64,000 nt of DNA from Actinostola sp. cb2023 (lineage: Eukaryota; Cnidaria; Anthozoa; Actiniaria; Actinostolidae), in contig JAUJYZ010000381.1 in assembly GCA_033675265.1 (NCBI GenBank), positions 224,501-288,500 of the forward strand, read 5' to 3'. Below the pieces are notes generated by a model that had not been told where the DNA came from, searched no databases, and was given only the letters and a program-made list of their open reading frames with translations. Both the position numbers and the translations under genes were made by a program. Shown here one piece after another: positions 10,901 to 19,900 of this stretch; the first letter of the stretch is position 1, and every line of letters starts with the position of its first letter.

Positions 10901-13900
10901 AATATAAATATTATTATTATTATTATTATTATTACTAATAATATGGACCAAAACAATATCCTTTACGTACCTTTGGTCTCAATAAAATCCATACGTCCAC
11001 AGTAAATATAGTGGCACTGCTATTGAATGCGGACGACAGGGAAGACATAAGAGCAGCCATCATGACAGCCATCATGAGCCCTACGAGACCTGTTGGTAAG
11101 ATGTTCAACACAAGCCTGAAAAAAAAACCCGACGTAAACTTATAAACACCTTGGCTTGCTAACAAACACTCATGATTGTAGATTGCTTCACTATATCGAG
11201 CAGTCTGTATCTCTAGCTATGAACTTTGTGAAGCGCATGTCGATATATTCACATAGAAACTTTCGCTATATGCATGAATACTTTCATTTTTTTTTCTCGT
11301 GGATTACATACTCCACGAGTTATAGGGATGATATTGGGAAAATTTTGGGATCACTCGCTCGGCTGTAAACTTTCATTACGTTGCCGCAGGCTCACAACTT
11401 TGGAGGAAGGGGGTGGTAATCCACGAGTTGGCCGACGGATGCCTTTGATATCCCTTGTGAGTATAAAGCCGAATCTACACGAGCAAGTTTTCCTTGACAA
11501 GTTTTCCTTGTCTCGTGTAGACGACAAAAACATCGCCAATTTTTCCTTGTCAAGGAAAACTTGGTTCGTGTAGATGCGGCTTTATAGTGGAACTTCAGTT
11601 GAAGTTGCTATATAACGAGTATGTATACTTTTTTTTTTTTTTTTTTTTTTTTGAGTATGTATACTTACTTGGGGTAAGCGTTGTTGGTACATCCCCACTT
11701 GTTACCACAGTAATGTTCACAACTAACACTATCAGCACAGGCAACAGAGTCTGGAAACAATACTCTACTAATCATCCCTGGCATCACCATGATGAACAAC
11801 GGAAGAATCTTGAGAAGACCAGCGAAGATGGATCCCGCTTTGGCGTGGAGATTATTCTTGGCACCAAGCGCGCGTTGGACAATGACCTACAGATGAAGAT
11901 TGTGAAGTAAATAATGTATCCAACAACGCAAGACCTGAGGAAGACAGACTAAGTTTGTCGAAACGTAGTCCACAAAGACAGGGTTAAAAAACATGCAGGA
12001 CAAAAATCCCAAGCAAACTGACATTCACAAATAATATGATCTGAGTAGTTCTGGAGATACGGTTTATAATTGTATTTCGCAAAGAAAACCTTGGTGGCAT
12101 CCCGGTCTGTTTGGTTCTTCTTTGCCATGCCACTGGAGTGCGTTGTGATTGGTTGAACAATGATTTTGCGCGCTGTGATTGGTTGAATAGATGTCTATGA
12201 TTCTGTACCATGACCATAACTCCGTACCATAAGTTTCCCACTCATACGAAAACCTCTCTAAAAGGCTTGTACCGTGTCAGGACATGGCGTGACAGCAACC
12301 GTACTCTAACTTCTCCTTTCGCAAGTAAACGTAAAGACGGCATTGTATTCAGAGATTCACAAGGATACAAATCAAACAATTACCTGATCAGTACACCAAT
12401 ACCAAACGCCCATAATTGGCAACGTGGTCCATAGTCCCAACCAGGGGTAGTCTGGGTCATCCATTGGTCTAAACATATTCCCCCAGTATGGGGTCAGTTT
12501 GTAGCAGGCCTCAGTAGTGCCATTTGTTGCGTTCATGAGGTGCATCATGCTGCTGTTGGTACTATTTACTACTGGTGCTCGCCATGGTGTCCCTATGGCG
12601 TTTTCGTATTTGGACCATAGCCCATCGTGTCCTCCAACTTTTATAAAACCTAAAGTATTAAAAAGATAACATATATTAAGCAATTAATGGACGAAGTTGA
12701 GCAAAATATCGTGATTTTTCAGTGGCGAGCTATCAATTATTTTATTTTATTTGCCGATGCCGTCCGCGGCAGAGACAAATAACTGATAGCGAGACACTGA
12801 CAAATCACGATATTTTGCGATAACTGAGTTCAATAATTGTTTTATCATTCGACTCATTAGTCGCTTTTTTATTTTTATGCTTCTTTTTAGAGCTAAAATA
12901 TTGTCAATCTCTTCTTCTGACAGCTCGGGAAAACGTACGAGCTGCCATGTTTACACTGTGAATGATCAATAGTGCGCATGCTCAGACCGTTATTCGCAGC
13001 GAACATTGCTTAATCTTCACTGCGCATGCTCAGACCGTTATTTGTACGCAGTTATTTGCAGGTCTTTCAGCCAATCAGAACTGCGGATAGAAATGAGTGG
13101 AATGATAAAGACATACTGGAAGGAATATTTTACAAGTTTAATATTAGTTATTAAATTTAAAAATAAATAATTACAGTCAGGGTGACAGTATTATTGAAGC
13201 TAATAACTTGTGGTCTTCAACATAACTCACAAGGAAAGCTGTATAACAACAACAACAACAACAACTATGATATAATAATAATAATAATAATAATAACAAT
13301 AATAATAATAATAAACACTTTATTTAACAAACCAGTGTCCCTCGTTACTATATAATAAGACTAAATTATAAAAAAGCCATACTACTACCACTGAGTATTG
13401 TTGTTACACATTGTATTGTTGTTGAGCACATTGTTACTTACTTAGAATGGATAGAACGATTGCACCAATGATCATGATAGCACATTGTTACTTAGTACTT
13501 AGAATGGATAGAACGATTGTACCAATGATCATGATAGCACATTGTTACTTACTTAGAATGGATAGAACGATTGCACCAATGATCATGATAGCACATTGTT
13601 ACTTACTTAGAATGGATAGAACGATTGCACCAATGATCATGATAGCACATTGTTACTTACTTAGAATGGATAGAACGATTGCACCAATGATCATGATAGC
13701 ACATTGTTACTTACTTAGAATGGATAGAACGATTGCACCAATGATCATGATAGCACATTGTTACTTACTTAGAATGGATAGAACGATTGCACCAATGATC
13801 ATGATAGCACATTGTTACTTACTTAGAATGGATAGAACGATTGCACCAATGATCATGATAGCACATTGTTACTTACTTAGAATGGATAGAACGATTGCAC

Positions 13901-16900: not shown

Positions 16901-19900
16901 ACTTAGAATGATGGATAGAACGATTGCACCAATGATCATGATAGCACATTGTTACTTACTTAGAATGGATAGAACGATTGCACCAATGATCATGATAGCA
17001 CATTGTTACTTACTTAGAATGGATAGAACGATTGCACCAATGATCATGATAGCTCATTGTTACTTACTTAGAATGGATAGAACGATTGCACCAATGATCA
17101 TGATAGCACATTGTTACTTACTTAGAATGGATAGAACGATTGCACCAATGATCATGATAGCACATTGTTACTTACTTAGAATGGATATAACGATTGCACC
17201 AATGATCATGATAGCACATTGTTACTTAGTACTTAGAATGGATAGAACGATTGCACCAATGATCATGATAGCACATTGTTTCTTAGTACTTAGAATGGAT
17301 AGAACGATTGCACCAATGATCATGATAGCACATTGTTACTTACTTAGAATGGATAGAACGATTGCACCAATGATCATGATAGCACATTGTTACTTACTTA
17401 GAATGGATAGAACGATTGCACCAATGATCATGATAGCACATTGTTACTTACTTAGAATGGATAGAACGATTGCACCAATGATCATGATAGCACATTGTTA
17501 CTTACTTAGAATGGATAGAACGATTGCACCAATGATCATGACAGCACATTGTTACTTACTTAGAATGGATAGAACGATTGCACCAATGATCATGATAGCA
17601 CATTGTTACTTACTTAGAATGGATAGAACGATTGCACCAATGATCATGATAGCACATTGTTACTTACTTAGAATGGATAGAACGATTGCACCAATGATCA
17701 TGATAGCACATTGTTACTTACTTAGAATGATGGATAGAACGATTGCACCAATGATCATGATAGCACATTGTTACTTAGTACTTAGAATGGATAGAACGAT
17801 TGCACCAATGATCATGATAGCACATTGTTACTTACTTAGAATGGATAGAACGATTGCACCAATGATCATGATAGCACATTGTTACTTACTTAGAATGGAT
17901 AGAACGATTGCACCAATGATCATGATAGCACATTGTTACTTACTTAGAATGGATAGAACGATTGCACCAATGATCATGATAGCACATTGTTACTTACTTA
18001 GAATGGATATAACGATTGCACCAATGATCATGATAGCACATTGTTACTTAGTACTTAGAATGGATAGAACGATTGCACCAATGATCATGATAGCACATTG
18101 TTTCTTAGTACTTAGAATGGATAGAACGATTGCACCAATGATCATGATAGCACATTGTTACTTACTTAGAATGGATAGAACGATTGCACCAATGATCATG
18201 ATAGCACATTGTTACTTACTTAGAATGGATAGAACGATTGCACCAATGATCATGATAGCACATTGTTACTTACTTAGAATGGATAGAACGATTGCACCAA
18301 TGATCATGATAGCACATTGTTACTTACTTAGAATGGATAGAACGATTGCACCAATGATCATGACAGCACATTGTTACTTACTTAGAATGGATAGAACGAT
18401 TGCACCAATGATCATGATAGCACATTGTTACTTACTTAGAATGGATAGAACGATTGCACCAATGATCATGATAGCACATTGTTACTTACTTAGAATGGAT
18501 AGAACGATTGCACCAATGATCATGATAGCACATTGTTACTTACTTAGAATGGATAGAACGATTGCACCAATGATCATGATAGCACATTGTTACTTACTTA
18601 GAATGGATAGAACGATTGCACCAATGATCATGATAGCACATTGTTACTTACTTAGAATGGATAGAACGATTGCACCAATGATCATGATAGCACATTGTTA
18701 CTTACTTAGAATGGATAGAACGATTGCACCAATGATCATGATAGCACATTGTTACTTACTTAGAACGGATAGAACGATTGCACCAATGATCATGATAGCA
18801 CATTGTTACTTACTTAGAATGGATAGAACGATTGCACCAATGATCATGATAGCACATTGTTACTTACTTAGAACGGATAGAACGATTGCACCAATGATCA
18901 TGACAGCACATTGTAAAACATCGGTGAAGATTACAGCCATAAGACCACCTATAGATGAGAAATATTTCATACAGTCACACTATTAGCTAATCTTAACTAT
19001 AGCTTCCTCTTACTCCAACGAAGGGCTAAGGCTCGAAACGTCAGTAAAGTTAAGTACTCTTTATTACAGTGTTATAGATTTCCTTTAACCTTTGAATTTA
19101 TCATTATTCACCGACGCAGCTCATACCAGTGTACTCGCTAGTTTCTATTAGCAGTATTATCTAGTCTACAATGCTACTACAATCGTTGTCAGCTTGATAT
19201 TCCGGCGTCAAAGTTAGGACCAAAAGGAATTATGAGAAATTGAACGTTTCAAATAATATCGTAAAACTGACCATCTGTTCTTGGTTTTTGAAAACCTCAC
19301 GAGTATCTCTATGTTATTTGCATGAAACGCGGGCTCATTTACTGATTTCCCAGACATCCTTGCGGTCGTAGCTGCTATGATTTATGATTTTCAACCCGAC
19401 AACGATTATACAATTAAGAGGAGTTTTTTTACGAACACGCGTATTGAGCGCCAAAAACCAATAGCATGGAGAATACGTTTTGTACAAGGCTAAAACTGCT
19501 TTAGCAAAGAATTCAAGTTATTTGGGATGGTTTTTGACCGGTAAAAGTGAAATTAGAGTGTTAATCCAAAGTGAAAATTTGATTTGAAAACTGTCCACAT
19601 GGGCTAGATCTGTATATTTGCTAGTCTTGCTGATGTTTTCCCCTGAATTAGTTCAAATTTGAAACAAAAAGCAGGAAAATGGCTTTGTACAACGCTAAAA
19701 CAGCTTTAAACAGACAATTTACTTTGTTTTTAATAGTTTGTGCTTAGTTAAAATAAAATTAGAGTGTTAATCCAAAGCGAATATCGAAAGCCAAACTGTT
19801 CAAAAGCGCTCGTTTTTGGCGCTTTTCGCGGATATTACGCGATGTTCAAATAAATATTCTCTTAATAGGGGACCGAGTTCACTTGCAATAGCTGATATTG

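Follow-up and report, generated by a model that had tools for sequence, protein, structure and literature searches.

How does a gene keep its product when the border between one of its exons and the following intron, 5' splice site included, is present in about one hundred tandem copies? The question is raised by a 64,000-nucleotide (nt) stretch of DNA, the window, from the sea anemone Actinostola sp. cb2023, which is summarized as a deep-sea animal (assembly GCA_033675265.1, contig JAUJYZ010000381.1, positions 224,501 to 288,500, forward strand). On the minus strand of the window lies an SLC5/SGLT5-like transporter gene whose intron 7 holds an array of 54-base-pair (bp) units, each made of the end of exon 7 and its donor. 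Arrays of this form have been called 'mirages' in amphioxus: that is, minisatellite-like tandem repeats spanning an exon-intron border (PMC3087553, PMC3902484; statements from the literature, here and below, draw on parts of the papers cited). In our judgement the array is very likely a minisatellite of the mirage type, nearly neutral, produced by slippage or unequal exchange, and spliced at its most upstream donor.

The repeat unit is an exon end with its 5' splice site

The host gene is intact. The spliced model, with 14 coding exons, is identical to database protein P0001 across all 677 residues; the protein falls in Pfam family SSF (PF00474), and its nearest relatives with a solved structure are SGLT1 and SGLT2. 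The 13 introns range from 265 to 6,218 nt, intron 7 being the longest. The features needed for the argument, all on the minus strand, are as follows (^ marks a splice junction).

7735..28660, minus: SLC5 gene, full coding span (gene model, identity to P0001, PF00474)
18868..18948, minus: exon 7, 81 nt, the last 46-47 nt of which are the repeat source (acceptor TATAG^GTGG, donor CTAA^GTAAGT)
18860..18869, minus: authentic exon 7 5' splice site, AA^GTAAGTAA, with an in-frame stop TAA at intron +6 to +8
12650..18867, minus: intron 7, 6,218 nt, phase 1 (gene model)
12384..12649, minus: exon 8, acceptor partner of exon 7 (gene model)
13425..18867, minus: 100 intronic copies of the 54-bp exon-end-plus-donor unit, in blocks of 50-76 bp, with a 10-nt partial copy at 13425-13434
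13390..13434, minus: far edge of the array, a short tandem repeat of 18-20 bp with ACAATGTG twice, then AATACTCAGT

The unit joins the last 46-47 nt of exon 7 to 7-8 nt of the intron, and the units run head to tail from 18914 to 13425 along the gene's sense strand, the shared sequence beginning within exon 7 at 18914 and ending in the partial copy. Tandem Repeats Finder gives a period of 54 with 40.3 + 61.1 copies at 96-97% matches, and the minus strand splits into 101 donor blocks. One of these is the true exon end; the other 100 are intronic and together span 5,443 of the 6,218 nt (88%) of intron 7. These results bear out an earlier interpretation made from the letters of the window alone (the sequence-only reading), which had described about 100 copies of a 54-bp unit formed by the exon 7 end and its donor, placed them in the following intron on the sense strand, and stated that only the first donor joins real exon sequence and that a stop follows directly past it. 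The upper limit of 18948 that it gave for the array is the start of exon 7; array sequence starts at 18914.

The antisense frame is open across part of the array (16257-18986, plus strand), giving a 909-residue open reading frame with an 18-residue repeat; this frame is a by-product of the 54-bp period, with no sign of a gene.

Turnover, not selection, accounts for the retained donors

The sequence-only reading held that the donors are nearly all kept as GTAAGT, and proposed a unit-by-unit count. The count gives the exact border CTAA^GTAAGTAACAATG in 84 of 101 blocks and GTAAGT in 87 of 101, that is, in 86 of the 100 intronic copies; retention is thus upheld as a number, but not as special conservation. 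Compared with the consensus, units 2-100 are changed in the 12-nt donor in 17/99 cases and in the other 42 nt in 23/99 (counted as units, not as independent events). The donor has 5 substitutions vs. 20 in the other 42 nt, and 15 insertions or deletions vs. 5. Because GTAA copies slip, the donor is the more variable part of the unit per base: one GTAA is missing from the 50-nt blocks, and most of those of 57 nt read GTACTAAG. Selection on the array donors is rejected, as conservation is no higher in the donor bases than elsewhere in the unit. We conclude that turnover, not selection, accounts for the survival of GTAAGT.

The same counts bear on the hypothesis that the array is a platform for U1 small nuclear ribonucleoproteins, recruiting many of them and so strengthening exon 7 definition or guarding a long intron from premature polyadenylation, or, in a variant of the hypothesis, titrating U1 at high expression. 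U1 protects introns against polyadenylation. Retention of GTAAGT in 86 of 100 intronic copies is in keeping with a platform, as is the finding in other genes that a modified U1 placed downstream of a 5' splice site corrects exon skipping (PMC4822034, PMC5933811); the absence of preferential donor conservation, with 15 of 20 insertions and deletions falling within the donor, and the existence of close paralogs that have no array (see below) argue against it. Platform and titration, taken jointly, are very unlikely.

The order of the copies points to a history of duplication in blocks. The majority block type makes up 62 of 101 blocks, and there are 21 types in all, one of them distinct only through flanking sequence in the last block. 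Variant blocks recur in order at lags of 15 units (6 matches) and 17 units (5 matches); in 2,000 shuffles the best lag per shuffle averaged 2.7 matches, with a top value of 6. Block order of this kind is expected from unequal exchange or from the duplication of blocks. It also argues against an assembly artefact, in which the assembler would have inflated an array that is really short or absent, an explanation that gains from the near-identity of the units and from there being one assembly only. The diversity of block types, the ordered recurrence, the 112 Gb of PacBio reads at a stated coverage of 280x (PMC10803348), and the occurrence of arrays with this anatomy in two other genes (in one case on two contigs) together make such an artefact extremely unlikely; a pure artefact is disfavoured, and the exact copy number may be off.

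The array occupies one locus and is absent from two close paralogs

A whole-genome DNA search with two units as query, in which the best candidates alone were scored, yielded 49 matches: 47 in the intron 7 array and two single 52-nt matches, on contigs C388 (100%) and C1331 (98%), which are exon 7 of two close paralogs. Over the exons found, these paralogs show 5-6% divergence (91/1,796 nt for C1331; 82/1,394 nt for C388), and each has one exon 7 followed by GTAAGTTTAATACTCAG, with no 54-bp array. The possibility of a dispersed repeat inserted into the intron is rejected by this search, which places the array at a single locus, with two lone exon copies elsewhere. As for change in array length, close paralogs are without the array, block duplications record past change, and no second haplotype of the window gene was seen.

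The paralogs also bear on where the array began. The sequence AATACTCAGT, 25 nt past the last partial copy, is a match to the paralog intron 7 at +9, and its position seems to put the array within the first ten bases of the homologous intron, on a match of only 10 nt. A short homology present in exon and intron, ACAAT/ACAATG, is a likely candidate for the seed.

Another array, of 76 bp, lies deeper in intron 7 of both C388 and C1331 (L016, L019), with 21 copies in one paralog and 13 in the other; a search found it on no contigs besides these two. The homologous intron 7 has gained a second, unrelated array in the close paralogs. Neither 76-bp array is within 60 nt of an exon segment, and neither was flagged by the exon-copy test described below.

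The array probably holds an older version of the exon end

The array consensus has codons ATC and ATT (Ile, Ile) for GTC and GTT (Val, Val) in the gene's own exon 7, and is identical to the C388 paralog across 52 nt. Among 12 aligned relatives, Ile is found at the first site in nine, at the second in nine and at both in six; P0003 and P0053 have Val at the first site and P0008 has it at the second; none of the 12 has it at both. The comparison indicates that the array most likely predates two codon changes in exon 7 and holds the exon in its older version.

Exon-type codons reappear within the 101 blocks, GTC in units 11 and 26 and GTT in unit 3. With 10 distinct substitution types and a uniform model, the probability of both exon-specific variants by chance is about 0.003, a value that transition bias would raise. 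The reappearance is a hint that exon and array may exchange sequence.

Two further SLC5 genes carry arrays of the same anatomy

The genome has 20,812 annotated genes (PMC10803348). A survey for border arrays, covering its SLC5 family, identified two more paralogs with independent arrays of like anatomy, exon end plus donor, built of unrelated units. On contig C1221 the repeated stretch is the final ~36 nt of exon 2 followed by GTAAGTA (or a variant of it); its period is ~43 bp, and its copies fill most of the intron. The number of donors is six both on C1221 and on its near-copy C644 (contigs ~97% alike over the longest match), an equality that speaks against fast change there. On C1221, U1 pairing is slightly stronger at donors 3 and 5 than at the true site (-11.2 vs. 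-10.9 kcal/mol) and weaker at the remaining three decoys (-10.5, -7.5 and -4.0 kcal/mol). On contig C233 the unit is 73 bp long, with 53-54 nt from the end of an exon 7 and 19-20 nt from the intron behind it; there are nine donors, GTACGT in 9/9. This array stands at the border homologous to the exon 7 border of the window gene; its unit is unrelated.

The exon-copy test used 165 tblastn segments in nine blocks of the genome's SLC5 genes, with a threshold of at least 24 nt at 85%; 75 of the 165 segments lie within the window, mostly in the array itself, and the segments of one exon may count twice. Otherwise the test flagged only one whole duplicated exon (C388) and one degenerate, partial copy of the start of exon 6 (window). 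Arrays near SLC5 exons on C1221 (30 bp and 12 bp), C846 (17 bp) and C233 (70 bp) were set aside, with no exon sequence in them by eye; the remaining near-exon arrays, which were not inspected singly, gave no flag at the stated threshold. The 70-bp intronic array (C233:35721-36858, L050) has in its unit an acceptor-like TCTTCTATAG and a donor-like CTAAGTAAC. The SLC5 survey found no acceptor-side arrays, and the border arrays found so far all involve 5' splice sites.

The exon 6-start copy lies at 20601-20703 (minus strand), ~0.5 kb upstream of the real exon 6, with acceptor AACTAG^GTTGAT. Its local score is 87, vs. a maximum of 30 in 300 shuffles, and it is possibly a decayed acceptor-side duplicate.

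A broader proposal is that exon-border satellites are recurrent in this anemone's genes and that the array exchanges sequence with its source exon. We regard this proposal as tentative and rather unlikely. If true, old versions of the exon would be stored in the intron, and gene conversion or unequal crossing-over could copy them back over the exon end and its splice site.

Only the first donor preserves the protein

In computed splicing, joining exon 8 to each of the 100 intronic TCT(A/C)A^GTA positions gives an identical 213-residue product in 100/100 cases, because the stop at intron +6 to +8 comes first, and only the first donor keeps the reading frame and the full protein. Array donors of the main type equal the authentic donor in U1 pairing (-7.2 kcal/mol); the 12 other donors of the gene have values of -6.8 to -11.7 kcal/mol, 10 of the 12 being stronger than the exon 7 donor. 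Since main-type array donors are as strong as the true one and the first alone gives full protein, the gene can work only if the choice is made by position and not by strength. On a small home-made matrix, the AGs within the unit score 1.5 and -3.0, vs. -4.4 to 10.5 for the gene's 13 acceptors; they appear to be weak acceptors, and use of units as pseudo-exons would be little favoured.

These results could be taken to support regulated or leaky unproductive splicing, in which later donors are used appreciably and transcripts with a premature stop lower or tune transporter expression. Every downstream donor position leads to the one truncation, and competition is physically possible with main-type copies equal to an authentic donor that is itself weaker than most of its counterparts; moreover, in human F7 intron 7, downstream donors act when the first is mutated (PMC6627357). 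However, of the several repeated 5' splice sites in F7, the most upstream is normally the only one used (PMC6627357), amphioxus mirages reportedly do not disturb regular splicing (PMC3087553, PMC3902484), and the array donors bear no sign of selection. We consider unproductive splicing of this kind distinctly unlikely. The sequence-only reading had listed U1 trapping, slow splicing and a truncated protein from alternative donors as effects that the array may have.

According to the mirage-type explanation, a short tandem duplication would have formed over the junction of exon 7 and intron 7 in a single SLC5 gene, probably once that gene had separated from its close paralogs, and slippage and unequal exchange would have enlarged it to ~100 copies inside the intron. 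By analogy, splicing of the window gene would proceed normally from the most upstream donor, the one that completes a real exon (exon definition or oriented choice, as in F7 intron 7), and the array would be tolerated, and nearly neutral, because the remaining copies leave with the intron. Rare use of a later donor would give the 213-residue product, from a transcript probably sensitive to nonsense-mediated decay. Neutral slippage, to which the sequence-only reading had resorted as a fallback, is the best reading, the test for selection on donors being negative.

Several points weigh against this explanation. The intron 7 starts of the window gene and its paralogs align poorly outside the 10-nt AATACTCAGT, and the proposed seed homology is indistinguishable from an ordinary partial end copy. 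Neither paralog seems complete: no exon 2 or 3 turned up in the retrieved stretch of C1331, and none of exons 1-4 and 8 in that of C388, which is partly N, so there is some chance that an array was lost there. Normal splicing is argued by analogy, P0001 is an annotation and not a transcript, and the activation of downstream F7 donors by weakening of the first (PMC6627357) implies that array donors are not inert in principle. Finally, the copy number comes from a single PacBio-based assembly.

Other features of the window

About 67 TGTC copies (21246-21514) end a few bases before the exon 5 acceptor and make up its pyrimidine-rich stretch. At 33669-59673, arms of 460, 503 and 882 nt, 98-100% complementary and ~22-25 kb apart, with 60-bp arrays inside, look like those of a large mobile element with long terminal inverted repeats; three stretches of it, searched in one reading frame, gave no Pfam match. 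At 880-2740 (plus strand) there are exons that, judged by eye, resemble the C-terminal end of a DNAJC2-like gene.

Comparison with known systems

The sequence-only reading had taken an exon/intron border that became a satellite to be known from few cases; amphioxus mirages (PMC3087553, PMC3902484) and F7 intron 7 (PMC6627357) are precedents. No cnidarian mirage appears among the titles and abstract openings listed in searches of the open-access literature, a scope outside which most subscription papers fall.

PMC3087553 also discusses the gain of introns when AG/GT segments are duplicated in tandem, a process that likewise copies a stretch with splice signals. It differs in that the copies here lie inside an existing intron and the exon structure is that of P0001; a new intron position is rejected, the exon 7/8 border being shared with the C1331 and C233 paralogs.

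In human F7, intron 7 has a variable-number tandem repeat of near-identical 37-bp units, the first of which contains the exon's 5' splice site (PMC6627357). The window array shares near-identical tandem donors of which the first is authentic, and differs in having ~100 units of 54 bp in place of a few of 37 bp; donor use was measured in F7 and is here predicted. The number of repeats in F7 intron 7 is 5-9.

Amphioxus mirages are described in Adh3 (units of 10-72 bp), troponin C (TnC), the globins BflGb6 and BflGb9, and PGBD5; they occur at both kinds of border, and BflGb6 haplotypes have 6 and 3 units (PMC3087553, PMC3902484). As in amphioxus, the unit of the window array spans an exon-intron border, one terminal unit is the authentic border and the others are intronic, and splice signals are kept in many units. 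By these structural features the window array is a member of the mirage class. It differs in its 101 blocks, in the restriction to 5' splice sites so far, and in its host; the published mirages considered come from cephalochordates, which is the host range of those cases and not part of the structural definition.

The results carry the mirage phenomenon from amphioxus to Cnidaria, with 101 donors vs. a handful. Within a single gene family of one genome there are three such arrays, their units unrelated, and two of the arrays stand at the exon 7 border in homologous position. The three form a natural series of 6, 9 and 101 tandem 5' splice sites, in the shortest of which two decoys slightly surpass the true site in U1 pairing. 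With this series, the question of how a spliceosome would settle on the first among many equal donors becomes directly testable with the RNA of one animal.

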